Both the position numbers and the translations under genes were made by a program. Below the pieces are notes generated by a model. That model was not told the origin of the DNA. It did no database searches and saw nothing but the letters and a program-made list of their open reading frames with translations. From Anaerolineales bacterium (lineage in GTDB: Bacteria > Chloroflexota > Anaerolineae > Anaerolineales > UBA6663): a DNA stretch of 40,722 nucleotides. The DNA is taken from NCBI GenBank assembly GCA_016789175.1, contig JAEURK010000390.1, forward strand, positions 1 to 40,722, written 5' to 3'. Of this stretch, positions 8,590-37,783 are shown one piece after another; position 1 is the stretch's first letter, and each line of letters opens with the position of its first letter.

Positions 8590-9153
8590 CTAGACGTGAC
8601 TATCCCAAAGCGTCTCCGGTCGCGCCTTGCGCAGATTCTCAAATCGCGCCATGACGAACAACAGGTCCGACAGGCGATTGAGATAAGCGTTCACGAACGT
8701 CCCAACCGGTTCGATCGCGTGCAAAGTTGTCACGTCGCGCTCCGCGCGTCGGCATATCGTGCGCGCGACGTGCAACTGCGCCGCCCCGACCGCGCCGCCC
8801 GGCAGGATGAAGTTCGCCAGCGGGCCGACCGCTTCGTTGAGTTGGTCGATCCAACCCTCGAGGCGTTCGACATGGCGCGCTTCGATCTGCGGGATGGCGA
8901 AGCGGGTCTTGTCTTCTTCGAGGAAGCACAGATCCGACCCGAGGTGAAACAGCTCGTTCTGGATCACGGCCAGCATCGTCGCGAGTTCGGGATCGAGATC
9001 GAATGCCAGGGCCACGCCCAGGATCGAGTTCAACTCGTCGACGGTGCCGTACGCGGTGACGCGAGCCGAGTTCTTGGGCACGCGCTGGCCCCCGCCCAGG
9101 GCCGTGGTCCCGTCATCGCCCTTGCGGGTATAGATCTTGGTCAAACGTGGCAT
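8590..9153 (-). CDS. pduO: PduO-type ATP:cob(I)alamin adenosyltransferase
   Basis: A 187-residue protein, normal length for the family. It transfers the 5'-deoxyadenosyl group of ATP to cob(I)alamin, making adenosylcobalamin in the cytoplasm. The N-terminal ATP-binding motif is [19 protein letters not shown]. The C-terminal helices carry [12 protein letters not shown] and [12 protein letters not shown], the family's signature Arg-rich and Asn/Asp segments. The start at 9153 is chosen over an upstream in-frame ATG because conservation begins at [12 protein letters not shown] and GGGAG lies 7 nt before it. It is the last gene of the B12 operon, 86 nt after the permease, so imported corrinoid can be converted directly to the form that the upstream riboswitch senses. 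Confidence 0.92.
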
Positions 9154-14750: not shown

Positions 14751-15134
14751 ATGCCGAAGGCGAACATCCTCTACATCGAGGACAACCCGGACAATCGGAT
14801 CCTGGTCAGTCGGGTGCTGCAGGCCGAGGGGTACGCCGTGACTCTGGCCAACGATGGCCCCAGCGGTCTGGTCGCGGCGCGTCAGCGTCGACCCGATCTG
14901 GTTCTGATGGACATCAACCTGCCCGAGGTCGACGGCTACGCGATGACCGAGTTGTTTCGCGCGACGCCGGGGCTCAACGTCATTCCGATCGTGGCGTTGA
15001 CTGCCAATGTCATGAAGGGCGATCGCGAGCGCAGCCTGGCTGCCGGATGCAACGGATATATTCAGAAGCCGATCGACGTCGATACTTTGCCGACCCAGAT
15101 CGCGGAGTACCTGGCGCGCACCCCAAGCGCCTGA
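14751..15134 (+). CDS. single-domain response regulator (CheY-like)
   Basis: A 127-residue stand-alone receiver domain with all phosphorylation residues: acidic pair Glu10/Asp11, phosphoacceptor Asp54 in VLMDINLPEVDGY, Thr84 in ALTAN, Lys106 in QKP. It has no output domain, so it must act by protein contact or pass phosphate on. The sequence is of the DivK/'polar differentiation' subtype often found beside hybrid kinases. It opens the seven-gene signalling operon. Upstream are a purine-rich ribosome site (GAGAGGCAGGAAC) and a -10-like TACAAT (14722-14727). Confidence 0.92.
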   Translation: MPKANILYIEDNPDNRILVSRVLQAEGYAVTLANDGPSGLVAARQRRPDLVLMDINLPEVDGYAMTELFRATPGLNVIPIVALTANVMKGDRERSLAAGCNGYIQKPIDVDTLPTQIAEYLARTPSA

Positions 15135-15156
15135 ACAGCATTGGAGGCTGGTCTTC

Positions 15157-15573
15157 ATGAATCGAGTTGCGGTTGACCCCAAGGAAGCCACGATCTTGAT
15201 CGTGGAGGACAACGTCTCCAACTTCGTGCTGATGGCGCGGATGCTGGCATACATGGGCGTGCCCCGCTGCGAGTGGAAGACATCCGGTTGGCAGGTGGTC
15301 GAGTTCGCCGATACATTGCCGAAAATCGACTTGATCCTGATGGATTTGCGGCTCCCGTACGAAGACGGCTATGGCGCGCTCAAGAAGGTCCGCGCGACGC
15401 CCAAGATCAAGGACACCATCGTGGTGGCCGTGACCGCCGAAGCCAGCCAGGAACAGCTCAACCGAGCGCGTGAAGCCGGGTTTGACGGCTTCCTCGGCAA
15501 GCCCTTGGACCCCGATCGCTTCCCCGAGCAGATCCGGCGCCTGTTACGCGGCGAGCAGGTCTGGGAGCAATAG
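15157..15573 (+). CDS. single-domain response regulator, second copy
   Basis: A 138-residue stand-alone receiver 22 nt after the first. Phosphorylation residues are present: Glu17/Asp18, Asp63 in LILMDLRLPYEDGY, Thr93 in AVTAE, Lys115 in GKP. It differs from the first receiver in a longer N-terminus and an atypical segment between helix 1 and strand 3 (MGVPRCEWKTSGWQVVEF), so the two are not recent duplicates and may recognise different partners. No output domain. ATG 15157 is preceded by TGGAGG. Confidence 0.9.
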   Translation: MNRVAVDPKEATILIVEDNVSNFVLMARMLAYMGVPRCEWKTSGWQVVEFADTLPKIDLILMDLRLPYEDGYGALKKVRATPKIKDTIVVAVTAEASQEQLNRAREAGFDGFLGKPLDPDRFPEQIRRLLRGEQVWEQ

Positions 15574-15591
15574 TCCGTCGCGGGAGGCCGC

Positions 15592-17406
15592 GTGTCCGAA
15601 GCCCCCAACCCGGTCCGCCAACGACGTGGCGGGCTGAGTCGCACCCTATCTCTGATCTTTGTCGCTCTGGCGCTGCTGCCGGCACTGGCGGGCGGCGTCG
15701 TGTTCTACGCGCGCACCTCGGTCGCGCTCGAACAGGCCAGCCTGCATCAGGTCGAGTCATTGGCTGACCTACGCCGGATCGACGTGCTCGCCTGGGTCGA
15801 GCAACGCTCCCGAACCCTGGCCGCACTCTCAAACGATGTCGACCTCCTGGGCGCCCTGACGCCGGGCGAGCCCAACCCGGCCGCTGCGACGACCTGGCTG
15901 GACGGCCACGTCAACGACGACCCGGCCTTTGCTGCCATCTTGATCGTGCGCTCCAGCGATGGCCAGGTCTGGGCCGCCTCCCGGACGCGCGCGACCATCA
16001 CCGGTGAGACCTTCCCCGGCTGGAAGAGCGTGCGCCCGACCGGCGTCTCGCCGGCGCGCTATGAGCCCGGCCTGGCCAGCGACCGACTCTCCCTGCTCTT
16101 CACAGCCGTCGTGCAAACGCCCGACACGCCCGACACCTGGACCCTGGTCGGCGAGGCGTCGGTGCCCAATCTGCAAATCCTGGTGAGCAGCCTTTCCGAG
16201 ACCCGGGCGACGATGCGCGCCTTCCTGGTGACGGCCGAAGGTGACCCGCTGCTGGGCGCCAACGGCTCCGCACCCGTGCCGCTGGGCGGCGAAGCCGTGC
16301 GCGCCGCGACCGCCGGCGAAGACGGCTCCGGCCGTTTCGCGGGCGCCCAATCGAGCGAAACCTCGGTCGCCGCGTATCGGTGGTTGGGTGAAGAACTGGG
16401 CCTCTCCCTGATCGTCGAACAGAGTTACCTGGACGTGGTCGCGCCGCTCTCCGGCGCCGCTATTTGGGCCCTGCTGGCGCTTTTGCCGGCGCTGCTGGTG
16501 CTGGCGGTGGCGGTTTGGGGGCTGATGACGCGGCGGCTTGCGCCGCTGCAGACGATCGTGGAGACCGCCCAACGCTTTTCGGGCGGCGCCCTGACCGCAA
16601 CGGTGCCGCCTCAAACCGATCAGGAGATCGACGCCGTCGCCACAGCCTTCAACCGTCTGACCTCCGACCTGCGCCGCCAGTTCGGGGCCCTCGAGGGCCA
16701 GGCGAGTGCCCGCGCCGGGCAACTGGCCGCGGCGGAGGCCGTCCTGGCCGCCACCACAGCCCCTCAACGACTGACCGTCCTCCTGGCGCAAGGCTGCAAC
16801 GCGATCCAGGAACACTTCCCGGTCGAAACGGTCCTCGTCTTCTTGCCTGACGAGCAGGACGGTCGGCTGCATCTCCGCGCCGGCACCGAGACCGTGACCT
16901 CGCGCCTGCGGGCGCGCAACCTGTCTTTCGCGATCGACGCCACCACGACCGTGGGCTGGGCCGCCCTCGAGCGCGCACCCCGGCTGTCGCCCGATGTCTC
17001 CGAAGACAACCTGTACACGCCCTTCCCCGAGTTGCCCGAGCTGCGCTCAGCGATCGCGCTGCCGATGCTTTTCGGCGACGAAGTGGTCGGCGTGATCCTG
17101 ATCGGCGCGCGACAGACTGGCGCGTTCGGGACGCCCGACCTCCCGGCCTATCAGATCGTGGCCCACCATCTGGCGATCGCCGTCGCCAACAGCCGCCAAT
17201 ACGAACGCTCGCAACGTACCCGCCTGGTCGAGGACGTCGTCGTGGCGCTGGCCGGCGAGGTCAGCCAGACCACCGATCCTGAGCGGATCCTGTCGATCGG
17301 GGCGCGCGTCCTCGGCCTGGCCCTCGACGCGCGCAAGGCCGTTATCCGAATCGGGACGCGCACTGAGCCCCAACCGATGGACCCGTCCCCCGAGGAGGCC
17401 GCATGA
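15592..17406 (+). CDS. membrane sensor protein with HAMP and GAF domains, no kinase domain
   Basis: A 604-residue protein starting at GTG 15592 behind CGGGAGG. TM1 is at about residues 18-40. An extracytoplasmic region of about 245 residues (probably Cache-like, ending YLDVVAPLSG) is followed by TM2 (about 289-314) and HAMP (RRLAPLQTIVETAQRFSGG to about 368). A GAF domain spans about 385-540 (RSAIALPMLFGDEVVGVILI, then ADLP...YQIVAHHLAIAVANSRQ-type helix). A short helical tail (VVALAGEVSQTTDPERIL) starts but does not complete another GAF. No HisKA, HATPase, GGDEF or methyl-accepting domain follows, although the length and order are those of a histidine-kinase N-terminus. Its stop overlaps the next start as ATGA. 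Confidence 0.85.
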   Translation: MSEAPNPVRQRRGGLSRTLSLIFVALALLPALAGGVVFYARTSVALEQASLHQVESLADLRRIDVLAWVEQRSRTLAALSNDVDLLGALTPGEPNPAAATTWLDGHVNDDPAFAAILIVRSSDGQVWAASRTRATITGETFPGWKSVRPTGVSPARYEPGLASDRLSLLFTAVVQTPDTPDTWTLVGEASVPNLQILVSSLSETRATMRAFLVTAEGDPLLGANGSAPVPLGGEAVRAATAGEDGSGRFAGAQSSETSVAAYRWLGEELGLSLIVEQSYLDVVAPLSGAAIWALLALLPALLVLAVAVWGLMTRRLAPLQTIVETAQRFSGGALTATVPPQTDQEIDAVATAFNRLTSDLRRQFGALEGQASARAGQLAAAEAVLAATTAPQRLTVLLAQGCNAIQEHFPVETVLVFLPDEQDGRLHLRAGTETVTSRLRARNLSFAIDATTTVGWAALERAPRLSPDVSEDNLYTPFPELPELRSAIALPMLFGDEVVGVILIGARQTGAFGTPDLPAYQIVAHHLAIAVANSRQYERSQRTRLVEDVVVALAGEVSQTTDPERILSIGARVLGLALDARKAVIRIGTRTEPQPMDPSPEEAA

Positions 17407-20165
17407 TCGCCAATCGGCAGCGCAGCGCCTTCCTCCTATCAGCACTGACGACCGTGATCGCCCTGGCCATGACGGCTTACACGGGCAATCAATGGCGCGT
17501 GCACGGCGGGCTCAACCTCGGCGTGATGACGTCGGGCCTGGTCGCGCACCTCGTGATCGGGGTGGCCGCCGTCTGGCTGGCGTATCGCAAATACAACGAG
17601 GCCGCGACCTGGTTGCTGTTGATCGCCCAGACCGTCTTGTTCGTGCTGGTCTCGGTCCTGGTCAGCGACATCGCACCCGTGCTGGCGATCGCCGAGTTGT
17701 TCACGACGGCGTTGTTTGCGCTCCTGGTGATGCGCCCGGGTCGGCCGGCCGGCCTGTTGATCGCACTGGGTGTGATCGGCGGCCTGTCTTTGTTGGCGAT
17801 CGACTTTGGACTCGACGCGATCACGACCTGGCCCCGCCTGGTGCCGGAGGGTGCGCTCACCCAGTTCATCCTGCCCAGCGTCCTGGTCATTCTGACGATC
17901 GCCGGCGCGGTCTTGCTGTACACGCGCATGCGTGACTCGTCGCTCACGGTCAAGATCCTGGCCACGATGGCCAGCATCACCGTGGTCCCGGTCTTCGCTG
18001 CCAGCATCGTCAACAACTCTCAGACCGACCTGGCCTTGCGCAACTCGGCCAAGCTCAACCTGTACACCTCCGCCCTGCAGTCCGCCTCATCGGTCGACAA
18101 CTTCGTCGACTCCAATCTCTCGGCGGTCAGTGCCGAGGCGCGCTCGGCTGTGATCCACGACTTCATCATGCTGCCGGAATCGCTGCAAACGGGCGGCGAG
18201 GACCAGGTCCGGACGACGCTGCTCAGCTGGCAGCGCGCCGCGTTGGCGGGCGTCGAGACCTCGGAGGCGCGCCCCTTCGTGCGTGAGTTTGTGTTGCTCG
18301 ATTCCCAGGCGCGCCAGTTGATCGGGACGCGCGACCAGGGGCGTTTCCTCGCGGCCGACATGGCCCGGGTGGCGATCGAGCGCAACCGCTCCTTTGCGCA
18401 GGGTGTGTTTCACGAGAGCTCCGACCTGCGGTGGCTGTACTTTTTTGCGCCGGTTCCGGGCGACGATGGACGCCCGATCGGCGCCCTGGTGGCCCTGGTC
18501 GATGCGAGCTGGCTGGATCGGCTCCTCCAGCGCAACAACGAGTTGCTCGGCGCCGGCACCCAATCCTGGGCCATGTTGTATGACGAAAATACCCAGCAGC
18601 TGGCCTCCGGCATGCCCCTGCCCGATGACGGACCCCGTTTCGTCGTCCGACCGGATCCCGGCACCCTCCTGGCGCTCCAGGCCGAGGGACGCATCGCCAC
18701 CTCCCCACGCACGTCGTCCGACGACTTCGACGAGCTGTATCAGAGCCTGCTGCGCGCGCGCCAGCTCCCGAACCAGCCGTCGTATTACACCGGCTCGATC
18801 GACACCGGTCTGGGCACCGGCCGCTATCTGGCGGCCCTGACACCCCTGCGCAGCCTGCCGTCGTGGACCCTGGCCTACGTGCAGCCGGAGGTGATCGCGC
18901 TGCAGGCCGCTCGTAACCAGATCCGCTTCCTGATCGCGATCACGCTGGCGCTCACTTCGATCGTGGCTGTCGCGACCTGGTGGTCGGCGCGCCAGCTGAC
19001 GCGACCGCTCTCCGCCCTGGCGCGGGTCGCCCGGCGCGTCAGCGAAGGCGACCTGAGCGCCCGGGCCGAAGTCACGTCCCAGGACGAGCGCGGCCAATTG
19101 GCCAATGCGTTCAACACCATGACCAGCCGGCTCCAGGACGCCTTGCGCGAGCTGGATCAACGCGTACAACGCCGCACGGCCCAGCTGCAGGCGACCGCCG
19201 AGATCAGCCGCCTGACCGCCATCATCCGGGATGTGCCCGAGTTGCTGCGCCAGGCCGTGGTGCTGATCCAGGACCGCTTCGGCTTCTACCATGTCGATGT
19301 CTACATGGTTGACGCCCAGGGCGCCGGCCTGGTCCTGCGCGACGCTGCAGGCGTCGGCGCCGAAGCCCGTTTGGCGCGCGGTCAGGCCTATGTGATCGGA
19401 TCGCGCTCGCTGGTCGGCTGGGTCGGCCAACGCCGGCAGGCGCGCATCGCCTACGCCGACTCGGCCGACACGTATTTCACGGCGGACCCGGATCTACCCG
19501 AGGTCAAGTCGATCCTGGCCCTGCCGCTGGCGGTGGGTGATCGCTTGATCGGCGTCCTCAAGCTCTTCAGCCGCGACGAAGACGCCTTCCGCCCCACCGA
19601 CCAACAGGCCCTGCAGACCCTGGCCGACCAGATCAGCGTGACGATCGAGAACGCCGAGAGCTTTCAGCGCACGCAACAGGCCCTGGCCGATGTGCGCGGG
19701 CTCTATCAGCGCACCCTTAATCAGGGCTGGCAATCCTGGGCTGAGGGTCAGCCTCACGAGCAAGTGCTGATGCTGCGCCCCGAAACAACGTCGAGCGGCA
19801 TGACCATCCGGGTGCCGGTGCGGATGCGCGACGAAGTCGTGGGCACGATCGAGCTCGATCTTCCCGAAGGCGCATCCCCGCTCACGCCGCAAGAGACCGC
19901 GGCGCTCGAGACGGCGGCCGCCCAACTGGCCACGGCCCTGGAAAGCGCTGCGCTGGTGCATGAAAGCCAGGCCCGCAGTCGTCGCGAACAACTCATCATC
20001 GAGATCACGGATCAGATGCGCGCCTCGTTGAGCCCCGAGCTGATTCTGCAAAACGGGATCCGCAACCTGGGGCGCGCGTTGGGCGGCGCCGAAGTGACGG
20101 TGCGTCTCAACCCGCCGGGGTGGCGCTCAGGCGAAGGCGGTTCGGGAGGCCAGACCGGTGACTGA
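17403..20165 (+). CDS. large multi-TM sensor protein with Cache-like, HAMP and GAF domains, no kinase domain
   Basis: A 920-residue protein. Six or seven N-terminal helices (about residues 8-180) precede a further TM at about 185-203, an extracytoplasmic sensor of about 300 residues (VHDFIMLPESLQ, FVLLDSQARQLIGTRDQG, YYTGSIDTGLGTGRYLAAL: dCache-like), TM at about 507-527 and HAMP (TRPLSALARVARRVSEGDLS). A coiled-coil linker leads to a GAF domain (about 600-760: FGFYHVDVYMVD, SLVGWVGQRRQARIAY, SILALPLAVGDRLIGVLKLFS), part of a second GAF and a helical end. Again no catalytic output domain. The gene begins inside the stop of the previous gene and overlaps the next by 8 nt, so all three sensors are probably made together and may assemble as one receptor complex. 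Confidence 0.85.
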   Translation: MIANRQRSAFLLSALTTVIALAMTAYTGNQWRVHGGLNLGVMTSGLVAHLVIGVAAVWLAYRKYNEAATWLLLIAQTVLFVLVSVLVSDIAPVLAIAELFTTALFALLVMRPGRPAGLLIALGVIGGLSLLAIDFGLDAITTWPRLVPEGALTQFILPSVLVILTIAGAVLLYTRMRDSSLTVKILATMASITVVPVFAASIVNNSQTDLALRNSAKLNLYTSALQSASSVDNFVDSNLSAVSAEARSAVIHDFIMLPESLQTGGEDQVRTTLLSWQRAALAGVETSEARPFVREFVLLDSQARQLIGTRDQGRFLAADMARVAIERNRSFAQGVFHESSDLRWLYFFAPVPGDDGRPIGALVALVDASWLDRLLQRNNELLGAGTQSWAMLYDENTQQLASGMPLPDDGPRFVVRPDPGTLLALQAEGRIATSPRTSSDDFDELYQSLLRARQLPNQPSYYTGSIDTGLGTGRYLAALTPLRSLPSWTLAYVQPEVIALQAARNQIRFLIAITLALTSIVAVATWWSARQLTRPLSALARVARRVSEGDLSARAEVTSQDERGQLANAFNTMTSRLQDALRELDQRVQRRTAQLQATAEISRLTAIIRDVPELLRQAVVLIQDRFGFYHVDVYMVDAQGAGLVLRDAAGVGAEARLARGQAYVIGSRSLVGWVGQRRQARIAYADSADTYFTADPDLPEVKSILALPLAVGDRLIGVLKLFSRDEDAFRPTDQQALQTLADQISVTIENAESFQRTQQALADVRGLYQRTLNQGWQSWAEGQPHEQVLMLRPETTSSGMTIRVPVRMRDEVVGTIELDLPEGASPLTPQETAALETAAAQLATALESAALVHESQARSRREQLIIEITDQMRASLSPELILQNGIRNLGRALGGAEVTVRLNPPGWRSGEGGSGGQTGD

Positions 20166-23100
20166 ACCGCAAGCGCCTGGGATCCCACCGACCGCGCCCC
20201 AGCCCCTGGCTCCCGTGGGCGCCGCCAGCATCGCCGATCAGGCGATCAAGGCGGCACGCAACGACATGTTGTCGCAGATGCTGCGCAACTGGGCGATCGG
20301 CGGCCTGTTGGGCGGTGTCGCGGCCGCCTGGCTGGCGACCGGGCCAAATGCTCGCTGGGTGACGGCCACGCTGGCGGCGGTGCTGTGCCTCATAGCCTAT
20401 GGGCTTTCACGCTGGGTCCGCCTGCCCTACACGCGGCGCGCGATCATCACGCTGGTCCTGGCTTTTGGCGTCAGCCTGGCCAGCCTGCTGAACAACGGCC
20501 TCATGGGTGCGGGGCGGCTCTTCTTGCTCGCCTTCGTGCTGCAGGCCACGATGCTGTTCGGCCGGCGCGGCGGGCTCTCGGCGCTGGCCGTCGCCTTTGC
20601 GACCTGGGTGGTCACGGCCTGGCTGACGTGGGCCCACGTCATCGTACCGACCGAGATCCCGGTCAACGATAACCCGGAGTATTGGATCTCTGCGGCCCTG
20701 ACGCTCCTGGTCGTGGTCATGACCATGCTGCCGGCGCAGCGCCTGTTGATCGAGACGCAATCGTTCGTCGTCGCGCTGGCCGGACAGAAAGAGGATCTCG
20801 AGACGGCGCGCGAGCGCTTGATCGCGCAGACCGAGACCCTGGCGCAGACCCGCGACGAGCTGGCGGCCGCCAACGATCGCCTGAACACCCAGCGCTCGGC
20901 GCTCAGCCGTCGCGCCTCGCAGCTCGAGGTCAGCGCCGAGGTCGCACGTATCGCAACCACTTTGCACGACCTGCCCACCTTGCTCGACACGGCCGCGCAT
21001 CTGGTGAGCGAGCGCTTTGCGTACTACCACGTCGGGATCTTCCTGATCGATGAGTCGAAGGAGTGGGCCGTGCTGCGCGCGTCCAACAGCGTGTCGGGCA
21101 AGCGCATGCTGGCGCGTGGACACCGATTGCGCGTCGGGCAGCAAGGCATCGTCGGCCTCGTCGCCCAGACCGGGCAGTCTCGCATCGTCAATCGCGTCGA
21201 TGATGATCTGGTGCACTACAAGAACCCGGATCTGCCCGAGACCCGTTCCGAGGGTGTGTTGCCTTTGCGTAGCCGCAATAGCGTAATCGGCGCGCTCGAC
21301 GTGCAAAGCGTCGAGTCGGACGCCTTCGTCGATGACGAGATCCGCATGCTGCAGGCCCTGGCCGATCAGCTGGCTGTCGCGATCGATAACGCTCGCCTGT
21401 TCCACGCCACCGAGCAGCAACTGGTCGAACTGCGCCAGCTGCATGAGGTCCGGCTCGAGCGCCAGATGATCGACTCTGAAGGCGAGCCGCTGGCTTATCG
21501 CTATGACGGCGTCGAAGTCGATGAGGCCGTCGCCTCCAGCTCGGCGCTGGCCGAACGCAACCTTCCGTCGCTGGTCGTGCCGCTTCAGATCGGCACCCAG
21601 GCGCTCGGCACGATCGAGGTATTGACGCCCGGTGGTCCGCTGACCGAGGCGGAGCGCGATCTCACCACCGCGGTGGCCGAGCGCATGGGGCTGGCCCTCG
21701 AAAATGCGCAGTTGTTCCGTCAGGCGCGCGACAACGCCACCCGGATGGAATCGCTCTCCACCGCGATCCTGCAACTGACCGGCCCGCAGGACGACCGCGC
21801 CCGTCTGATCGAAGCCATCGGGCGCGAGGCGATGGTGCTTGCCAATGCAGAAGGCGTGGGTGTGTACATGGCCGCCGACGAGGGCCTGGCCCTGGCCTAC
21901 AGCCTCGATCTGCCCGTCGCCCTGCACGCCGAAGTGGTGGCGCACGATGAGGGCCTGGTCGGCCGGGCCTTTCAGGCCCGCAAGCCGATCCGAGTCGACG
22001 ACTATCGTACCTGGGAGGGCGCCCGCGCCGAGTACCAGGATCTGCCGATCCGGGCCGCCCTGGCCGTGCCCCTCACCTGGCGCGACACCAATGTGGGCGT
22101 GCTCGCCCTGACCCAATCGCAGCCGCGTCGACGTTTCACGGCCGAGGACGAGCAAATCGTGCGTCTGTACGCCGCCGCAGCCGCGTCGGCCCTGCAGAAC
22201 ATCAGCCTGTTCGACGAGCAACAGGAACAGTTCCGCCAGGAACTGGCGCTGAACGCCATCGGCCAGTCGCTCCGCAGCGAGCGCCGCTTCGAATTGGCTC
22301 TGAAGGAAGTCGGCCGCCAGCTCGAAGCGATCTTCCCGGCGGATGCCGTGATCGTCGCACTGGTGGAGCCGGGCAGTGAGCTGCTCTCTATCCCGCTGTA
22401 TCGCGTGCACGGCCAGGCGCTCGAATTGCCGCCGCAACGGGTCGTCAGCGGGCCGCTGGCCATGATCCTACGCAGTCGCGAGCCGCTGGTGTTGCATGCA
22501 GCCGCGCCCGAGGCGATCGGGCTGCAGGCCGCCGAGCCGATCGAACCGGCCTGGCGCTCGTTTGTGGGCGTGCCGATGCTGTTGGGCGACGAAGTCAAGG
22601 GCGTGATCGCGGTCGAGAACCACGAACACGAACGGGCATTCACCGATGGACAGCAGCGGCTGTTGGAGATCATCGCCGGCACGGTGGCCGTCACCCGGCA
22701 CAACGCCCAGCTCTTCGCGCAAACCGAGCAGGCCCGGATCGAGGCCTCGCAGCTCTACCAGGCCAGCTCGACCCTGAACCTGTCGACCACGGCTCAACAG
22801 CTGCTTGGCACGTTGCGCCTGAACACGCTGCTCGACGGCACGTCGCAGCTGATGCTCAACGTATTCGAACGCCGCTGGTCGGCGCGCGGCGAGGCGCCGG
22901 AATACAGCGAGCGCATCGCCCTGATCCCCGAGAGCGGGCATTCGTCGTCAGCCAACGAAGTGCGCAGCCACATCGCGCCCTGGCTGCGCCGGTTGCTCAA
23001 GCCCGATCAGATCGTGGCGATCGAGGACATCACCGAGCACGCCGGTCTTGACGCCAGCGCACGCGGCCTGTTCACGATCCGTTACAACGCCCGCAGCGCC

Positions 23101-24990
23101 CTGTACGTGCCGCTTGTGGTCCAGAACGAGGCGATCGGCTTCATCACCGCGCTCTACCCCGATCCCCGCAGCTTCCCGGCCGATGCGCTCAATCGCCTGA
23201 TGCTGTTAGCGCGCCAGGCCGCGGTGCTGATCGAAAACCTGCTCAACGCCCAGGAGCTGGAACGCCGCGCCCAGCAGCTGCAAACCGCCAGCCAGATCAG
23301 CCGCGCAGCGACCTCGATCGTCAACGTCGACCAGCTGGCCGTGCGCTCGACCGAATTGATCCAGGAACAATTCAACCTGTACTACGTGGCCCTGTTCCTG
23401 ATCGACAGCACCGGCCGCTGGGCTGTGCTCAAGCACGCCACCGGCGAGTCCGGTCGCAAGCTGATGGAGATGAACCACCGGCTCGAGATCGGCGGCCAGT
23501 CGATGATCGGCCAGGCAATCCACACGCGCGACTTCAAGGTCGCGAATCAGGCGCGCGTCGCGGCCGAGCGCTACGACAACCCGCTCTTGCCCGGCACCGA
23601 GTCCGAGCTGGCCCTGCCGCTGGTCGTCAGCGATACGGCTCTCGGCGCCGTCAGCGTGCAGTCGATCAAGGCCAACGCTTTTGGCGAGGCCGACATCCAG
23701 GTGCTGCAATCGATGGCCAGCCAGATCGCCATCGCCATCCGCAACGCCCAACTGGTCGGTCACCTCGAGCGCCGCACCGCGCAGGTGCTCGACGCGGCCG
23801 CCATCGGCCAATCGGTCAGCACCTTGCTGGTCGAGGACGAGCTGCTCCGGACCGCCGCGCAACAAATCCAGGAGCGATTTGGGTTCTCGGGCGTCGGGCT
23901 GTATCTGACCGACGCCGATGGCCAGGCCCACCTGGCCCAGTCCCAGGGCGATCCGGGCGCGCTGCCGCGCACGGTCTCGGCCCACGGCGACGATCTGCTG
24001 GCGCGGGCCTTGAGCACCCGCCAGCCGCAGTTCGGCGGGCTGGTGCTGGCTTTGCCGCTCAGCGCCGCCGGCACGACGGCGGGCGTTCTGGCGGCCCTGG
24101 GCGTGACGCCCTTTACGCGCGACGACGTTTCCGTGCTCCAGCCGCTGGCCGACCAGATCGCGGCCTCGCTCAGCAACGCGCGCCAGTACGCGCGCGAACA
24201 GCGCACGATCGAACAGCTGCGCGAGGTCGACCGCCTCAAGAGCCAGTTCCTGGCCAACATGAGCCATGAGCTGCGCACGCCGCTCAACTCGATCATCGGC
24301 TTCTCGCGCCTGATGCTCAAGGGCATGTCCGGCGCGGTCAGCGAAGAGCAGAGCAAGGACCTGGCGATCATCCATAGCTCGGGCCAGCACCTGCTCGGCC
24401 TGATCAACAACGTGCTCGACCTCTCGCGCTTTGAGGCCGGCAAGATGGACCTGGCGCTCGAGGCCATCGACGTGCGCCCGATCATCGAGGCCTCGGCCGC
24501 CGCCGCCAACGGCCTGATCAAGGGCCGGCCGATCACGCTCGAGCTGGATCTGCCCCAGGCGATGCCGGCCGTCTACGCCGACTCCACCCGTCTGCGCCAG
24601 GTGATGCTCAATCTGCTTGGCAATGCCGCCAAGTTCACCGAGCAGGGCTTCATCCGGGTCAGCGCCCACGTGACCGGGCCGCGCGACGGCCGGCGCTGGA
24701 TCGAGATCTCGGTGGCCGACAGCGGCGTGGGTATCGCCGAACAAGATCGACGCAAACTGTTCGAGCGCTTCTCGCAAGTCGACGACTCGCCGACCCGCCG
24801 CCACGAAGGCAGCGGCCTCGGCCTGTATATCAGCCGCCAGCTGGTCGAGCTGCACGGCGGCAGAATCTGGGTCAACAGCGCCGGGGTCGCGGGCGAGGGC
24901 AGCACGTTCACTTTCGGGATGCCCGAGTACCTGCCACCGGAAACCGACCCGCACGAAACCCTGAAAGAAGGAGCCCTGACCGGGGACTGA
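20158..24990 (+). CDS. multi-GAF membrane histidine kinase (1610 residues)
   Basis: Starts at GTG 20158 inside the previous gene. Six membrane helices (about residues 45-195) are followed by a coiled coil and six or seven consecutive GAF-type modules (about 255-420, 420-520 incomplete, 525-690, 690-860, 865-1035, 1038-1200 and 1210-1345). GAF1 and GAF6 are close relatives (FAYYHVGIFLIDESKEWAVL against FNLYYVALFLIDSTGRWAVL). HisKA has FLANMSHELRTPLNSIIGF with phospho-His1370. HATPase has the N box (VMLNLLGNAAKF, about 1482-1493), the G1 box DSGVGI (Asp1521) and the G2 box GSGLGLYIS. It has no receiver of its own, so phosphate must go to the two lone receivers or to the receiver fused to the enzyme 22 nt downstream. 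It is the only kinase among the three sensors of the operon. Confidence 0.93.
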   Translation: MTEPQAPGIPPTAPQPLAPVGAASIADQAIKAARNDMLSQMLRNWAIGGLLGGVAAAWLATGPNARWVTATLAAVLCLIAYGLSRWVRLPYTRRAIITLVLAFGVSLASLLNNGLMGAGRLFLLAFVLQATMLFGRRGGLSALAVAFATWVVTAWLTWAHVIVPTEIPVNDNPEYWISAALTLLVVVMTMLPAQRLLIETQSFVVALAGQKEDLETARERLIAQTETLAQTRDELAAANDRLNTQRSALSRRASQLEVSAEVARIATTLHDLPTLLDTAAHLVSERFAYYHVGIFLIDESKEWAVLRASNSVSGKRMLARGHRLRVGQQGIVGLVAQTGQSRIVNRVDDDLVHYKNPDLPETRSEGVLPLRSRNSVIGALDVQSVESDAFVDDEIRMLQALADQLAVAIDNARLFHATEQQLVELRQLHEVRLERQMIDSEGEPLAYRYDGVEVDEAVASSSALAERNLPSLVVPLQIGTQALGTIEVLTPGGPLTEAERDLTTAVAERMGLALENAQLFRQARDNATRMESLSTAILQLTGPQDDRARLIEAIGREAMVLANAEGVGVYMAADEGLALAYSLDLPVALHAEVVAHDEGLVGRAFQARKPIRVDDYRTWEGARAEYQDLPIRAALAVPLTWRDTNVGVLALTQSQPRRRFTAEDEQIVRLYAAAAASALQNISLFDEQQEQFRQELALNAIGQSLRSERRFELALKEVGRQLEAIFPADAVIVALVEPGSELLSIPLYRVHGQALELPPQRVVSGPLAMILRSREPLVLHAAAPEAIGLQAAEPIEPAWRSFVGVPMLLGDEVKGVIAVENHEHERAFTDGQQRLLEIIAGTVAVTRHNAQLFAQTEQARIEASQLYQASSTLNLSTTAQQLLGTLRLNTLLDGTSQLMLNVFERRWSARGEAPEYSERIALIPESGHSSSANEVRSHIAPWLRRLLKPDQIVAIEDITEHAGLDASARGLFTIRYNARSALYVPLVVQNEAIGFITALYPDPRSFPADALNRLMLLARQAAVLIENLLNAQELERRAQQLQTASQISRAATSIVNVDQLAVRSTELIQEQFNLYYVALFLIDSTGRWAVLKHATGESGRKLMEMNHRLEIGGQSMIGQAIHTRDFKVANQARVAAERYDNPLLPGTESELALPLVVSDTALGAVSVQSIKANAFGEADIQVLQSMASQIAIAIRNAQLVGHLERRTAQVLDAAAIGQSVSTLLVEDELLRTAAQQIQERFGFSGVGLYLTDADGQAHLAQSQGDPGALPRTVSAHGDDLLARALSTRQPQFGGLVLALPLSAAGTTAGVLAALGVTPFTRDDVSVLQPLADQIAASLSNARQYAREQRTIEQLREVDRLKSQFLANMSHELRTPLNSIIGFSRLMLKGMSGAVSEEQSKDLAIIHSSGQHLLGLINNVLDLSRFEAGKMDLALEAIDVRPIIEASAAAANGLIKGRPITLELDLPQAMPAVYADSTRLRQVMLNLLGNAAKFTEQGFIRVSAHVTGPRDGRRWIEISVADSGVGIAEQDRRKLFERFSQVDDSPTRRHEGSGLGLYISRQLVELHGGRIWVNSAGVAGEGSTFTFGMPEYLPPETDPHETLKEGALTGD

Positions 24991-25012
24991 GCCCCGCCCA
25001 GGAGGACGCGCT

Positions 25013-26689
25013 ATGCCCGAATTCATCTTCGCGGTCTGCCAGGACTGCGGCCATCGCCGCCCCTTTGCCGTCCGCCAGGTCACGTGCCCGAAGTGCGGCA
25101 GCGAATTCGCCGAGGCCGAGTACCCACTCGACGCCCGCGAAGGCCTGCTGGCCGAATGGCGCAATCGCGACATCGGTCTGCGCCGCTTCGGTCCGCTCCT
25201 GCCATTGCGCGAGCCTGAGCGCATGATCACGCTCGGCGAGGGCGACACGCCCCTCATCCCGCTCGATCACATCGGCCAGCTGCTCGGGCACCCGAAACTG
25301 TACGCCAAGGACGAGCGCCAGAGCCCGACCGCGTCGTTCAAAGATCGGCAGGCCGCCCTGGCCGTCTCGGCCATGAAGGAGGCCGGGCTAACCGAGGCTG
25401 TCGTCTCATCGACCGGCAACGTCGCCATCGCCTATGCCGCCTACTGCGCGCGGGCCGGCATCCGCCTGACTGCCTTCCTGACCCCGACCGTGCCGGCCGA
25501 CAAGATGCGCGAATGCGCGCTCTACGGCGCGCACATCATCAAGGCGACCACGTCGTACGACGCCTCCAAGAAACTGGCGCTGCGCTTCGCCGAAGAACGC
25601 GGGCTGTTCTACGATCGCGGTCTGCGCAGCATCCCTTCGCTCGAGAGCATGAAGACTATCGCCTTCGAGATCGCCGAGCAACTGGCGGCGCTCGAGCAGC
25701 GCCCCGGTGCGCCGCGCTACGTGGCGCCGGATTGGTACGTCCAGTCGATCAGCGGCGGCCTCGGCCCGATCGGCGTCGGCAAGGGTTTCCGCGAACTGCA
25801 CGGTCTGGGCTTGATCGACCGGCTGCCCAAGCTGGCCGGCATCCAGGTCGACGGTTGCGCGCCGATGGTGTCGAGCTTCGCCCGCGGCCTGGCCACGGCC
25901 GAGCGCGTCGACGAGCCCCGCACCCGCGTCAGCACCCTCGCGACCGGCGATCCCGGCCGCGCCTATGAGCGCGTCAAGGCTTACATCGACGCCCACGGCG
26001 GCGCGATGCTGGCGGTCAGCGACGAGGACGGCTTCCGGGCCATGCATCAGCTGGCCAAGCTCGAAGGCCTGTCGATGGAGCCCGGCGCGGCCGTGGCCTT
26101 CGCCGGCGTGATCAAGCTCATCCGCAGCGGCGTGATCACGCCCGACGAGACCGTGGTGATCAACTGCACCGGCCACACCTTTCCGGTCGAGCCCGAAGTG
26201 CTCGGCCAACAATGGTGGCGCGATTGGGAGACGATCGATACGCCCGCGCAGACCGGCTCGCTCACGCCGCAGGCCGAGGCCGAGGGCATGCCGGCCGCGA
26301 TCAGCCGGATCGACACGCGCGTGCGCTCGATCGCCATCCTCGAGGACAACGCCGACAGCCGCCGTCTGCTGCGTCGCGTGCTGCAGGCGCATAGCGATTT
26401 CGCCATCCACGAGGCCGCGGACGGCCAGGCCGGGCTCAGGCTCATCCGCGAGCAACGCCCCGACCTGATCATCCTCGACCTGATGATGCCGGGCCTCGAC
26501 GGTTTCGGCGTGCTCGACGCGCTGCGGGCCGACGAGGGCCTGCGCGGGATCCCCGTGATCGTTGTCACTGCCCGTTCCCTCAGCAGCGACGAGCGCCAGC
26601 GGCTGGCGTCGCAGGTCGGCGCGGTCTGGCAAAAGGGCGAGTTCCTGGACGACGACCTCCTGGTCGAGGTGGAGCGGGCGCTCAAATGA
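25013..26689 (+). CDS. threonine-synthase-like PLP enzyme fused to a C-terminal receiver domain
   Basis: A 558-residue protein behind AGGAGG. Residues 1-40 form a four-Cys zinc ribbon (Cys9, 12, 25, 28). Residues 45-405 are a fold-type II PLP enzyme most like threonine synthase: PTASFKDRQ with the Schiff-base Lys110, SSTGN (132-136) and the phosphate-cupping SISGGLGPIG (245-254). Threonine synthase turns O-phosphohomoserine into threonine; related enzymes act on cysteate, threonine or serine, so the exact reaction is open. After a linker (410-435), residues 438-558 are a complete CheY-like receiver: Glu444/Asp445, Asp489 in IILDLMMPGLDGF, Thr519, Lys541. The usual Lys-Pro is Lys-Gly. One continuous frame joins the two parts with no stop or restart. 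It follows the operon's only kinase, suggesting phosphorylation-controlled catalysis. The stop overlaps the exporter start (ATGA). Confidence 0.9.
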   Translation: MPEFIFAVCQDCGHRRPFAVRQVTCPKCGSEFAEAEYPLDAREGLLAEWRNRDIGLRRFGPLLPLREPERMITLGEGDTPLIPLDHIGQLLGHPKLYAKDERQSPTASFKDRQAALAVSAMKEAGLTEAVVSSTGNVAIAYAAYCARAGIRLTAFLTPTVPADKMRECALYGAHIIKATTSYDASKKLALRFAEERGLFYDRGLRSIPSLESMKTIAFEIAEQLAALEQRPGAPRYVAPDWYVQSISGGLGPIGVGKGFRELHGLGLIDRLPKLAGIQVDGCAPMVSSFARGLATAERVDEPRTRVSTLATGDPGRAYERVKAYIDAHGGAMLAVSDEDGFRAMHQLAKLEGLSMEPGAAVAFAGVIKLIRSGVITPDETVVINCTGHTFPVEPEVLGQQWWRDWETIDTPAQTGSLTPQAEAEGMPAAISRIDTRVRSIAILEDNADSRRLLRRVLQAHSDFAIHEAADGQAGLRLIREQRPDLIILDLMMPGLDGFGVLDALRADEGLRGIPVIVVTARSLSSDERQRLASQVGAVWQKGEFLDDDLLVEVERALK

Positions 26690-27762
26690 CCTCGTCCACC
26701 GGCGGATCGCGCTCGCTCAGCGCCGGCGTCTGGGCTGCCGCCCTGGCGACCGTCTCCGCCGGGCTCCTCCCGATCTTCGCTAAGCAGGCCTATGCGGCCG
26801 GCAGCGCGCCGATCGCAGTGGCAATGTTGCGCACCGTGCTGGCGGCCGGGCTGCTCTGGCTCATTCACCTGCTCTTCTGGCGCAAGTACCTGACGATCTA
26901 TCCGTTCGCCTTCGCGGCTTGCCTGGTGGCCGGCGCGGTCAACGGAATCGGATCGCTGCTGTTCTACGTCGGGCTCGCCCGCGTCGACGCGGCCCTGGCC
27001 CAGCTGCTGTTCACCCTGCACGTGCTCTTCCTGACCATGTTCTCGTGGCTCGACGGTCATCGCTTCTCCTGGCTGACCTGGCTGCGGCTTGGGTTGGGCC
27101 TGATCGCGGTGGCCTTGCTCCAGACCACCGGCTCCGGGACACTGGACTGGACCTCGGCCCTCATGCTGGTGGCGGCCGGCGGGCTGTACGCCCTGCACGT
27201 CTTCATCAATCAACGCACGCTCTACGACGTCCCGTCACCGACCGTAACGCTTTATACGTTGACCGGGATGGCTGCGACGGTCGTCATCGGCTACGTTGCG
27301 GTGGGTCTGCCAGCCATGCCCGGGACGGTCGCTGGCTGGCTTCCCATCGCGCTGCTGACCGTCTTCACCATCGTCCAGCGCCTGACGCTCTTCCTCGGTG
27401 TCAAGGAACTGGGCGGCCCGCAAACCCTCCTGCTCAACCTGGGCGAGGTCTTGATTGCGATCGTGGCCGCCGTCCTATTGCTCGGTGAGCGGTTGACGGC
27501 CGGTCAGTGGGCCGGCGCGGCCGTGCTGGGCCTCTCGGTCTGGCTGATCACGCGCGAGAACCAGTTGGGCGACCTGCCCCGTCCGCGCCCATGGGTTCAG
27601 ATCTTCACCAGCCTTTACCACACACTGACCGGCGGCGCCGAACGTTCCGGCGCCCGGGTGCACGCACCACAGCCGCCGACGGCCAACGGGGCTGCACCCG
27701 GGCCGCACGCCGAGAGTGCGCCAACGCAAGACCCGCCGGTGCCCGAGGTCGAAGCACCGTGA
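26686..27762 (+). CDS. EamA/DMT-family transporter
   Basis: A 358-residue protein with ten membrane helices in two EamA repeats (about residues 12-148 and 157-293), for example SAGLLPIFAKQAYAAGSAPIAVAMLR in repeat 1 and GGPQTLLLNLGEVLIAIVAAVLLLGERL in repeat 2, the typical end of the family. The cytoplasmic tail of about 60 residues is Pro/Ala-rich. DMT transporters export amino acids, purines and other metabolites, often as overflow valves (RhtA exports threonine and homoserine). ATGA overlap with the enzyme-receiver gene implies coupled translation and hints that it moves the enzyme's product or precursor. That link is inference from position only. Confidence 0.88.
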   Translation: MTSSTGGSRSLSAGVWAAALATVSAGLLPIFAKQAYAAGSAPIAVAMLRTVLAAGLLWLIHLLFWRKYLTIYPFAFAACLVAGAVNGIGSLLFYVGLARVDAALAQLLFTLHVLFLTMFSWLDGHRFSWLTWLRLGLGLIAVALLQTTGSGTLDWTSALMLVAAGGLYALHVFINQRTLYDVPSPTVTLYTLTGMAATVVIGYVAVGLPAMPGTVAGWLPIALLTVFTIVQRLTLFLGVKELGGPQTLLLNLGEVLIAIVAAVLLLGERLTAGQWAGAAVLGLSVWLITRENQLGDLPRPRPWVQIFTSLYHTLTGGAERSGARVHAPQPPTANGAAPGPHAESAPTQDPPVPEVEAP

Positions 27763-27903: not shown

Positions 27904-28016
27904 CGCTCGATCCTGACGGATCGAAAGATCCATGCAGGTCCCGAGATCTCTGAACCAGCATCGATTGGCTCCGGGGCGGACTTTGCGCCGTAACCCGGTT
28001 GAGAAAGAAAACCGGC

Positions 28017-29447
28017 ATGCGGTACACCAAGATCGTCTGCACCATCGGCCCGGCCTGTAACACCGACGAGAAGATCGCGGCCTTGATCGAAGCGGGCATG
28101 AACGTCGCGCGGCTTAATTTCTCGCACGGCACGCATGAAGACCATGCCTCCAATATCATCAAACTGCGCCGGGTGGCCAATCGTCTCAACCGCCCGCTCG
28201 CAATTCTGCAGGACCTCCAGGGCCCGAAGATCCGCACCGGGTGGCTGACCGATCACAAGCCGGTCGAACTGGTCGACGGCGCCGAATTCATGATCACCAC
28301 CCGCGACGTGCCCGGTGACGCCCAAACGGTCTCCACGACTTACGAGGGCCTGCCCGGCGACGTCAAACCGGGCAACCGGATCCTGCTCGACGACGGCCTG
28401 CTCGAACTCAAAGTCACGGCCGTCCGCGGCGAGGACGTGCACACCCGGGTCGTGCATGGCGGCATCCTCAAGGAGCATAAAGGCATCAACCTGCCCGGCA
28501 TCCTGGTCAATACGCCCTCGATGACCAAGAAGGACCGCGAGGATCTGGCCTTCGGCATCGCGCAGGGCGTCGACTACGTGGCGCTCAGCTTCGTGCGCCG
28601 CGCCGAGGACGTCGCCATGATCAAGCGCGCCCTGGTCGAGATCGACCCGCACGCCGCCAAGACACCGATCATCGCCAAGCTCGAAAAACCCGCGGCCCTT
28701 GACAACCTGGAGTCGATCGTCGACATGGCCGACGGTGTGATGGTCGCGCGCGGCGACCTGGGCGTCGAGCTCTCACCCCAGCAAGTGCCGACCGCGCAAA
28801 AGCGCATCATCGAGACCGCCAACCGCTTGCGCAAGATCGTGATCACGGCCACCCAGATGCTCGAGTCGATGATCCATAACCCGATCCCGACCAGGGCCGA
28901 GGTCTCGGACGTGGCCAACGCGATCTTCGACGGCACCGACGCCGTCATGCTCTCGGGCGAGACGGCCACCGGCCTGTATCCGGTCGAAGCGGTCAAGATG
29001 ATGGCCGCCATCGCCGAAGAGGCTGAAGCCAACGGCGCCCAATACGCCCGCTGGCACTCGCCGACCGAGATCACGTCCGACGACTCGGTCGCGCTGGCCC
29101 GCGCCGCCCGCGAGCTGGCCCACGACCGCGAGGTGCAGGCCATCGCGGTCTTCACGCTCACCGGCCGTAACGCCCGCGTGCTTTCGAAGACCCGGCCGCA
29201 CGTGCCGATCCTGGCCTTCACGCCGGATCCGGTGACCCATCTGCGCATGAACCTGATCTGGGGCGTCACCCCTTACCTGGTGCCGCACGCCGACAGTGTC
29301 GAGGCCATGCTGGCCCACGTCGAGGCCGCGATGCTGCTCAATTCGCCCGTGCGCCCCGGCCAACAGGTCATCATCATCGCCGGCCTGCCCTCCACCAGGC
29401 TGGTGCCCGCGAATTTCATCCTGCTGCACACCGTGGGGAGGTCGTAG
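28017..29447 (+). CDS. pyk: pyruvate kinase
   Basis: A 476-residue protein, normal length for bacterial pyruvate kinase without the extra PEP-utiliser-like C-terminal domain. It makes pyruvate and ATP from phosphoenolpyruvate and ADP in the last step of glycolysis. Signatures: [10 protein letters not shown] at the start, [12 protein letters not shown], the B-domain from about residue 70, [14 protein letters not shown] with the catalytic Lys, [14 protein letters not shown] and [26 protein letters not shown]. The C-terminal allosteric domain ends at [15 protein letters not shown] 28017 is chosen because the family's first strand begins there; a TTG 18 nt upstream is in frame but adds only MRKKTG. 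It appears monocistronic. Confidence 0.95.
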
Positions 29448-34785: not shown

Positions 34786-35210
34786 GTACATCCCGTTAAC
34801 GATATCGCCCGCTCTGAGTGATCCCGATCGAACTGGGCTCACTAAGGGCGGGCGTCCCGTGCATGTCAAGAGTAGCGCTTAGAAATCTAACCAGCGTCGT
34901 TCAGAAGTGCGCGTGTATGAAGACCAGATTAGGGCGACTCACAGAGCCGGTCAATGGAGTGGAAGTCACGACCGAATCATGACCGTGGCTCCATGACAGA
35001 TGTCTATGCCTGAGTTATGTTGCGGGGGAAATCCCCCGACGAGATCGACGGGCTATGCCCGGCGGCCTTTGGCGGCCCTCGAGGCGATATGTGTGCCCAG
35101 CGGCCGCAGCCGATCTCGCCGGGTGTGCCCCACGGTTTTTGACCGACTCGGACAAGCCAGCTCGCAACCGCCCATGCTTCCCGTCAGGCGCAAGGCGCGC
35201 ATTCGCAGAC
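34786..35210. other. long intergenic stretch, no convincing gene
   Basis: Between the inverted repeat and the kinase promoter I see no gene on either strand. The region is visibly less GC-rich than its surroundings. It holds a short hairpin CGGGGG-AAAT-CCCCCG (35023-35038) and a weak dyad near 34816-34842 (AGTGA/TCACT). An open frame in phase with the kinase runs back to about 35000 but lacks a ribosome site and the coding character of the genes nearby. Confidence 0.5.
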
Positions 35211-35219
35211 TGATATACT
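35211..35219 (+). promoter_or_regulatory. extended -10 promoter of the PDZ-kinase gene
   Basis: TGATATACT combines the TGn extension with TATACT, which can compensate for the missing -35 box. It predicts a leader of about 53 nt ending in a small stem, AGGCG-GTT-CGCCT, just before ATG 35279. Confidence 0.5.
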
Positions 35220-35278
35220 CGTCGCCATTCGGGCTGCGTGGGCGCCTGCCTCCCGGCCCGCGAGGCGGTTCGCCTGAC

Positions 35279-37687
35279 ATGTCCATACCCACCATGCGTG
35301 CCTCTGCGCCCAACAGGACCGAGCGCCTCCTGGCAACGCTGAGTGACGCGGCGCCGATGACCGTCGCGCTGGTGTCGCTCATCACACTGTTTTGGGCAGC
35401 GTATTGGATGATTCGACTGCCCTTCACTGGATTTGGGGGGACTGAGCTACTGCCTCTCGTTTCCATAGAACCGAATAGCCCGGCCGATGGAAAGCTGAGT
35501 GTCGGGGATCGCATTCTCGAAGTGGGTGGGAACCCGATCGAGCTGTCACTCGATTCGCTTGCCCACTACTCCGCCGGTGATACGCTCGACCTTCTCATTC
35601 AAGCTCCCGACGGCGCGATCCGCCGTGAAGCCATCCACCTCATTGGTCCTGCGTCTCTGGCCACACTTTTCGATCGGTTCTCATTGCTCTTGGTGGCCAG
35701 CGCGTTTTGGTTTACAGGAGTTGTCGTCGCAGCCTTGCTTAGGCCGACCAAAGCCGGTGACTTCGCCGGGGCGCTCGTGATCGCTTATGTGCATCTCATT
35801 GCGATCTTCCTGGCGACAAGCGCTGTGTCGAGTTACTTGTTGCTGACTGCGGGGTTGCTCGCGAGGATATGCGCTCTATGGTTGGGCGTTGTCGCGCTTC
35901 AACTCCACCTCCACTTTCCGACTCAAATCCGAACGAATCTGGGAACAGGTACCTGGGTCGCCTGCTATGGGCTATGCGCCTTGCTCTCGGCGTTCCTGGT
36001 AATTGCGGTGTACACCCAACCTGACATCGCCGCCAGACTGATTGTCGAATTGGCAACCGCCCAGGGCATTTGGCTGCTTGTTGGCTTGATCATCATTTTG
36101 GCGATCCTCACGCTCAGGCAGCCGGCCCAGCACACGGAAGATCACGCTCACCAACGTCGGATCATCGTCATCGCCAGTCTGACTGGGTTTTCGCCTTTGT
36201 TGTTGCTCACCTTGGGACCACAAGCGCTACTCGAGAGTCCCGGGATTGATGCATCGCTCACGGTATTACCCCTCGCGGCCATACCGCTCGGCTACGCGTA
36301 CGCGATCCTGCGTTATCGGCTGATCCGATACGACGGTCGGGTCAGCCGGGCCGTGGGATACCTGATCGCCGTGGTGTTCGTGGCGGTGCTGCTCGTCGCG
36401 GCCGTGGTCGGTCTGATCGCGCTCGGCCTCATCGCCGCTGGCCCGATCTTCATCGTCGTTCTCGTCCTCCTCGCCAGCGTTCTCGCCATCGTATTCGAGC
36501 CCGTCCGGCGCCGCATCCAGGACTCGGTCGACGGGATCTTCTATCGTCAATACGACGAATTACGCTCTACCCTGCGCGGCGTCGACCGGGCGCTTTCGAC
36601 CTCGCCGGATGTATCCGGCTGGGCGCAGGCGCTGTGCGTGCAATTTGCGACAGCCCTCGATGTCCGGCCGATCGGTTTGCTCTATCGGGTCCCGGAGGGC
36701 AAGGTCTTGCGTCTGGCGACCTACGATCCGGACGGACTGGCGGGCCCGCTATCGCGCGAGCTCGAGGCGCTCTCGCCCGTGATCGCGCAGATCGCCGAGT
36801 GGGCCGAACCCTGCAACACCGCCGGCCTGCGCGCCGCGGTCGATCGCCCCGGCCTATCGGCGACTGAAAGGGCCTGGCTGACGACCGCGGTCTTCGACCT
36901 CTGGTGGCCGATCCTGGCCCACGGCGTCCTGCAGGCCGTGCTCGTCCTCGGGCGCAAGCCCACGACCTACGCCGCGGAGGAGGTCGAGTTGATCGCGCTC
37001 GCCTCGCGCCAAATCGGGGCCGCGCTCGAGAACGCTCAGTTCGCGCGCGAGCTTGAGCAGCTCTCGCGGGCCGCGCTGCAAACGCGCGACGAGGAGCGCA
37101 AACGCGTCTCGCGCGAGCTGCACGACCACATCATCCAACCCCTGGTCGGTCTCAACTTTTCGCTAGCGGCGGCCCGGGACGTGCCCGAGGCGGCCGAAGC
37201 GCGCCAGCAGATCTCGGGTCTCATTGATCACGTCCGGCGGATCTCGGCTGACCTGCGCCCGCCGGCGCTCGACGAGGTCGGCCTGGCAGCGGCCGCCAGT
37301 GGCCTGGCACGCACCTTCGCGCGCAACCACAAGGTCATCTGCGACCTGGCCGTGCGCCCGGATGAGGACATCGACGTGCCGGAACCGTTGGCCTCGACCT
37401 TTTTCAGCGCCCTGCGCGAGGCCCTGAACAACACTGCCAGACACGCCGAGGCGACCCGGGTGTCGGTGCTGCTGGAAGTGCAGGCGGGCTCATTGACCCT
37501 GGTCGTGCACGATGATGGGCTGGGCTTCGCGCCCCCGGCCCGGTTGGGGCAGCTTGCGCCGGCCGGCCACTTCGGTCTGCTGGGCCTGCAAGAGCGCCTG
37601 GCGGCCGTCGGCGGCACGCTCGCCCTCCACTCGGAGCCCGGCCAGGGCACGCGCCTCGAGTGCCATGCGCCGTTGCCGCGTCCTTGA
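35279..37687 (+). CDS. NarL/DegS-type histidine kinase with PDZ-like and multi-TM sensor region
   Basis: An 802-residue protein; ATG 35279 is chosen downstream of the extended -10 box and before TM1. TM1 (about 27-48) is followed by an extracytoplasmic PDZ-like domain (PNSPADGKLSVGDRILEVGGNPI). Seven or more helices follow (about 135-425), then a GAF-like domain (about 450-590). A HisKA_3 dimerisation domain has RKRVSRELHDHIIQPLVGL with phospho-His615. HATPase has EALNNTARHAEA (714-725), HDDGLGF and GLLGLQERLAAVGGTL. It belongs to the family that phosphorylates LuxR/NarL-type regulators, and one follows 96 nt downstream. The N-terminal half uses visibly more AT-ending codons than the C-terminal half. 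Confidence 0.9.
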   Translation: MSIPTMRASAPNRTERLLATLSDAAPMTVALVSLITLFWAAYWMIRLPFTGFGGTELLPLVSIEPNSPADGKLSVGDRILEVGGNPIELSLDSLAHYSAGDTLDLLIQAPDGAIRREAIHLIGPASLATLFDRFSLLLVASAFWFTGVVVAALLRPTKAGDFAGALVIAYVHLIAIFLATSAVSSYLLLTAGLLARICALWLGVVALQLHLHFPTQIRTNLGTGTWVACYGLCALLSAFLVIAVYTQPDIAARLIVELATAQGIWLLVGLIIILAILTLRQPAQHTEDHAHQRRIIVIASLTGFSPLLLLTLGPQALLESPGIDASLTVLPLAAIPLGYAYAILRYRLIRYDGRVSRAVGYLIAVVFVAVLLVAAVVGLIALGLIAAGPIFIVVLVLLASVLAIVFEPVRRRIQDSVDGIFYRQYDELRSTLRGVDRALSTSPDVSGWAQALCVQFATALDVRPIGLLYRVPEGKVLRLATYDPDGLAGPLSRELEALSPVIAQIAEWAEPCNTAGLRAAVDRPGLSATERAWLTTAVFDLWWPILAHGVLQAVLVLGRKPTTYAAEEVELIALASRQIGAALENAQFARELEQLSRAALQTRDEERKRVSRELHDHIIQPLVGLNFSLAAARDVPEAAEARQQISGLIDHVRRISADLRPPALDEVGLAAAASGLARTFARNHKVICDLAVRPDEDIDVPEPLASTFFSALREALNNTARHAEATRVSVLLEVQAGSLTLVVHDDGLGFAPPARLGQLAPAGHFGLLGLQERLAAVGGTLALHSEPGQGTRLECHAPLPRP

Positions 37688-37783
37688 GGAAGGTAGTTCG
37701 CGCACAGACGTGATGCGCTCCCTTACGCTTACCCCCTCCGCGTCGTGGCGGTTGGCCTCCTCTGTTATCATCCGCGTCAGAAC

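Follow-up and report, generated by a model that had tools for sequence, protein, structure and literature searches.

Most known bacterial two-component systems have outputs that act on transcription or on second messengers. Receivers joined to metabolic enzymes are nevertheless a recognised class, with KaiC-REC and glycosyltransferase-REC among the examples in a 2018 archaeal census, where such fusions were found to have narrow distributions, often within one family (PMC5847659). In LqsA/CqsA signalling, a PLP-dependent autoinducer synthase is reported to be associated at the genetic level with a sensor kinase and response regulators (PMC3376566).

We analysed a stretch of 40,722 nucleotides of an Anaerolineales bacterium (contig JAEURK010000390.1, hereafter the window), in which a fold-type II PLP domain (PALP) and a receiver domain (REC) are encoded as one protein. 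No description of a PALP-receiver fusion was found in the literature searched, and an earlier listing in the Galperin 2006/2010 catalogues is possible. Like the metabolic-enzyme response regulators of the archaeal census, the protein joins a receiver to a metabolic enzyme, and signalling could act on activity directly. Unlike the archaeal examples, PALP-REC spans a class and reaches another, and it is accompanied by a conserved kinase and transporter. With LqsA/CqsA it shares a PLP enzyme linked genetically to a sensor kinase, which is an analogy only. CqsA and LqsA are fold-type I enzymes that are not known to be fused to a receiver, whereas the enzyme described here is of fold-type II and receiver-fused.

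We read the fusion as the output of a two-component system with a metabolic enzyme as effector, acting on an amino-acid substrate other than that of threonine synthase (ThrC), with an EamA-type transporter moving the product or a related metabolite. We give this reading a probability of about 0.5.

The fusion protein and its domains

The fusion gene and its parts are located as follows.

25013..26689, + strand: PALP-REC fusion protein of 558 aa in one uninterrupted frame between ATG and stop codon, with full-length homologues
25037..25096, + strand: zinc ribbon Cys9-Cys12-Cys25-Cys28, the four Cys invariant in 122 homologues
25226..26173, + strand: fold-type II PLP domain (PALP, residues 72-387), Pfam E 2.9e-63, full profile, 214 bits
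25340..25342, + strand: codon of Lys110, the expected PLP Schiff-base lysine, aligned with K61 of Thermus thermophilus ThrC and invariant in 122/122
26180..26323, + strand: linker, residues 390-437; a conserved helix, E-G-L-L-x-A-L, stands right before the receiver, and pLDDT is <50 at 407-436
26330..26683, + strand: receiver domain, residues 440-557, Pfam Response_reg at 440-531, E 4.5e-19
26477..26479, + strand: codon of Asp489, the expected phosphoacceptor, invariant in 122/122

The initial annotation had read a zinc ribbon, a fold-type II PLP domain and a complete receiver in this single frame, and the open reading frame and the Pfam matches confirmed it. All the residues that it had named were found at their positions, i.e. 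the SFKD Lys110, SSTGN at 132-136, Glu444/Asp445, Asp489, Thr519 and Lys541. The receiver thus carries the acidic pair, the phospho-Asp, the Thr/Ser and the Lys of a response regulator. On the other side of the linker the fold, the Schiff-base lysine, the glycine loop and the Asn of STGN are those of a fold-type II PLP protein.

Structure prediction, which had been proposed together with that annotation, gave a PLP domain and a receiver that are flexibly joined. The AlphaFold2 model had two confident domains with a mean pLDDT of 82.5; it says nothing about the oligomer or about inter-domain contacts. The flexible part of the linker fell at residues 407-436.

Distribution and conservation

A domain-architecture search across Chloroflexota, likewise proposed earlier, showed the fusion to be common. 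Of 298 genomes sampled from the class, 100 had full-length or near-full-length homologues, and a phylum-wide sample had fusion homologues in 42 of 400 genomes, six of them from one genus outside the class with genomes of about 6-7 Mb each. Within the class many families have the fusion, which also reaches another class, and some genomes have two paralogues. The 80 genome matches listed were all titled Chloroflexota or members of it, except for one metagenome-assembled genome titled Blastopirellula marina (L096), which is probably a misnamed bin. The isolate Bellilinea caldifistulae GOMI-1 also carries the fusion (L111).

Since full-length homologues are widespread, with the cultured Bellilinea among them, the fusion is no assembly accident. 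A stop or frameshift at residues 405-438, which the initial annotation had named as an observation that would refute its reading, was looked for and not seen: the 122 unique homologues read through the linker, whose length is 37-53 residues (median 42). An assembly chimera or a frameshift is ruled out by these homologues, which include the isolate.

The architecture was PALP-REC in 119 of 129 open reading frames and PALP-REC-REC in nine, and in one frame PALP appeared as two matches before REC. The PALP-REC-REC proteins are about 690-720 aa long (L121, L122, L123, L124, L126 and L129-L132, with L124 lying inside a 1695-aa frame), and a stand-alone receiver gene usually follows their genes. Two longer frames were discarded as architectures. 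For a 1157-aa frame at G037 the opposite strand had been picked, and the long frame at G096 (1784 aa; 1695-aa ORF), whose first 1028 residues gave no Pfam match, probably results from a frame run-on.

Alignment of the 122 unique fusions showed that the four zinc cysteines, K110, S133-T134-G135-N136, S247, G248, G251, D445, D489 and K541 are invariant. Position 444 was E or D and position 519 was T or S in all 122. The SGG-x-G loop at 247-251 was conserved, with A at 249 in one fusion. A degenerate PLP or receiver domain can be ruled out, with 0 losses in 122. Against the nearest relative, L038 (87% amino-acid identity), dN/dS was 0.09 for the zinc ribbon and PALP, 0.28 for the linker, 0.16 for REC and 0.11 overall; purifying selection is acting on both halves. 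Because of this residue conservation and dN/dS, the PLP site and the phosphorylation site are seen to be maintained together by selection in one polypeptide, which is the main evidence that the two activities belong together.

The kinase, the sensors and the transporter

The fusion lies in a same-strand run at 14751-27762 with gaps of at most 22 nt, in which three gene pairs overlap. The other genes of this run are, in order:

14751..15134, + strand: stand-alone receiver 1, with best matches to a stand-alone receiver of L066 and to the receivers of REC-kinases beside other fusions
15157..15573, + strand: stand-alone receiver 2, with 197-226 bits to stand-alone receivers in L140, L041 and L066, near PALP-REC genes
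15592..17406, + strand: membrane sensor with HAMP and GAF by domain search, no kinase
17403..20165, + strand: membrane sensor with a Cache-like region (dCache_1 39.8 bits, below the cut-off of 45), HAMP and GAF, no kinase
20158..24990, + strand: histidine kinase, 1610 aa, with MASE11, six GAF stretches, HisKA and HATPase, without a C-terminal receiver
26686..27762, + strand: EamA-type transporter, 358 aa, Pfam E 7.5e-20, 72 bits, in two stretches

The kinase frame stops at 24990 and leaves 22 nt to the ATG of the fusion, which agrees with the distance given in the initial annotation. In 106 of 129 fusion loci the same-strand gene directly before the fusion encodes a histidine kinase, with a median gap of 23 nt, and 85 of these 106 are hybrid kinases with C-terminal receivers. 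The gene order of L066 (REC, REC, GAF protein, kinase, PALP-REC) is close to that of the window. Some loci have no kinase directly upstream, among them Thermoflexus L109 and L114, where the upstream gene is not a kinase gene, and L139 and L140. In L109 an IF-2B-family gene (7940-8974) stands before PALP-REC in the kinase's place, and L114 has, further upstream, a gene for ribonucleotide reductase that includes intein domains (3120-7571). An OmpR-type regulator often faces the fusion cluster.

Relatives of the Cache-like sensor were found near fusions in other loci. Amino acids are bound by Cache domains with the published motif Y-x4-R-x-W-Y. A relaxed form of this motif matched 0 of 22 Cache-bearing neighbours, and amino-acid sensing by it is therefore not supported.

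On the other side of the fusion, the transporter gene starts with a 4-nt overlap of the fusion stop, and its product has EamA domains of the EamA/DMT type and is 44% identical to the product of the equivalently placed gene in L138. An EamA-type transporter related to that of the window is encoded directly downstream on the same strand in 81 of 129 loci (median gap 31 nt). It does not directly adjoin the fusion in the other 48, among which are those second-paralogue and PALP-REC-REC loci that were looked at; the gene directly downstream in other loci encodes a REC-kinase or a stand-alone receiver. The EamA protein probably moves the product of the fusion or a related metabolite. A pyruvate kinase gene follows shortly after EamA (27999-29447), and L113 and L115 have one too, within a few genes on the downstream side.

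These neighbourhoods, crowded with stand-alone receivers, REC-kinases and sensors of the GAF and Cache kinds, and also the PALP-REC-REC variants, would fit a PALP domain that is a sensor and not an enzyme: it would bind PLP and an amino acid and tune either the phosphorylation of the receiver or its choice of partner, as a ligand-aware receiver in a network of many receivers. We judge this unlikely, as STGN, the Schiff-base lysine, the pocket residues and the glycine-rich loop are completely conserved, beyond the usual need of ligand binding, and a transporter is commonly encoded beside the fusion.

A ParA/MinD-like ATPase gene lies just upstream of the hybrid kinase in 49 loci (e.g. L138:11788-12573), and none was found among the annotated neighbours in the window. 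Its position next to the kinase could suggest localisation, and together with the flexible linker it would suit a receiver that does not control catalysis, serving instead as a phosphate sink or as a tag for docking or localisation, by which a constitutive enzyme would be drawn to the sensor complex. However, none of the phosphorylation-switch residues is missing from the receiver, T/S519 among them, and the helix before it is conserved, and such a role seems to us clearly improbable.

Substrate of the PLP domain

According to the initial annotation, phosphorylation from the kinase would switch the flux through threonine or a related amino acid, with the fusion converting O-phosphohomoserine to threonine under control of its receiver. 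In the PDB, threonine synthases are its nearest relatives by sequence (T. thermophilus 1uim, E 2.2e-43), and the fusion is 35-36% identical to the T. thermophilus structures over about 318 residues. Like T. thermophilus 1uim/1v7c and Mycobacterium tuberculosis 2d1f, it has the fold-type II PLP fold, the Schiff-base lysine and the STGN loop. The best structural match of the model was Arabidopsis threonine synthase 2c2b (Z 42.8). Cysteate synthase CapA2 9k3c came second, at Z 40.0 over 384 residues that take in the N-terminal part, and the T. thermophilus threonine synthases gave Z 36-38. The best NCBIfam model was also a threonine synthase, NF006050, and fusions of five genomes (G010, G252, G270, G388 and G395) barely passed TIGR00260, with 168-189 bits.

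The window protein, however, fell below the cut-off of every NCBIfam threonine-synthase model listed, with 226.6 bits vs 303 for NF006050 and 115 vs 167 for TIGR00260. A separate, much stronger ThrC was encoded in 12 of 12 genomes checked (255-325 bits), including the host genome (289 bits). We then compared 32 fusions with 14 canonical ThrC, 12 of them from the host genome and its relatives and two from the PDB. T88, N154, S155, R160 and N188 (T. thermophilus numbering) were invariant in the 14 canonical sequences and replaced in all 32 fusions. In the T. thermophilus enzyme these residues bind the substrate phosphate (N154, S155, R160 and N188) or act in catalysis (T88). The fusions carry instead Q113, G203, S247-G248-G249, T311-G312, N384 and H388-T389, and their own near-invariants are R102 (121/122), Q113, T311-G312, N384 (121/122) and H388-T389, in addition to the C-terminal receiver that ThrC does not have. 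In a tree the fusion PALP domains formed one clade with 100/100 support, apart from seven ThrC-like sequences; the deeper order of this tree is unreliable because of long branches. No homoserine dehydrogenase or homoserine kinase gene was found among the annotated neighbours.

A housekeeping ThrC is ruled out by the separate ThrC of the genomes and the five replaced positions, and a phospho-regulated threonine synthase is, in our estimate, most improbable. From the missed cut-offs, the separate ThrC, the replaced residues and the separate clade it follows that the substrate is likely an amino acid other than O-phosphohomoserine, and the amino acid made by the enzyme is probably not threonine. 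The threonine part of the earlier interpretation is not supported, while its other part, a PLP enzyme and an intact receiver in one chain with a kinase directly upstream, held and is conserved in the 106 loci given above. The result warns against annotating PALP-REC genes as threonine synthase. The fusion also scored below the cysteate-synthase cut-off: TIGR03844 gave 85.3 bits for the window protein and 117.2 for the Bellilinea protein vs a cut-off of 324.9, and identity with CapA2 was 21%. Unfused threonine-synthase-like PALP genes were seen close to a PALP-REC gene in L135 (8365-9549) and L125 (3014-4543).

Proposed mechanism

In the scheme that we infer for phosphotransfer, domain coupling, PLP catalysis, substrate class and transporter cargo, Asp489 of the C-terminal receiver would be phosphorylated by the product of the adjoining upstream kinase gene, or in relatives by a hybrid kinase. 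A conformational change or dimerisation of the receiver would then pass to the PLP domain and alter its activity, and the conserved E-G-L-L-x-A-L segment before the receiver could carry this signal. The PLP domain would be catalytically active as a fold-type II enzyme, belonging to the threonine synthase / cysteate synthase group but with an amino-acid substrate that is not O-phosphohomoserine, and the adjoining EamA-type transporter would move the product or a related metabolite. As the enzyme and the phosphorylation switch share one protein beside a kinase and an exporter, the enzyme rather than a gene is the probable switched target. The general mechanism of the initial annotation is in this respect plausible and is strengthened by the wide conservation; direct control by phosphorylation is what we infer from the arrangement. 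If true, a widely conserved receiver-bearing PLP enzyme would let a sensor kinase set amino-acid chemistry quickly and without new protein. Several fusion loci carry further receivers, which could be the main phosphate targets; these, the loci that lack an adjoining kinase gene and the loci that lack an adjoining transporter gene count against this mechanism.

An extended form of this reading, which is speculative and rather unlikely, would be a self-contained chemical signalling module. The kinase-gated PLP enzyme would make an amino-acid-derived molecule, EamA would export it, and the Cache/GAF sensors of the operon would respond to the molecule or to a related cue. By direct phosphorylation of the synthase, the kinase would then set how much signal the cell itself puts out.

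The cultured Bellilinea carries the fusion, and the substrate, the phosphotransfer and the coupling are therefore directly testable. Elsewhere in the window, at 35000-38446, a HisKA_3-type histidine kinase (35000-37687) is followed by a receiver-bearing frame (37745-38446), which resembles a separate two-component pair.
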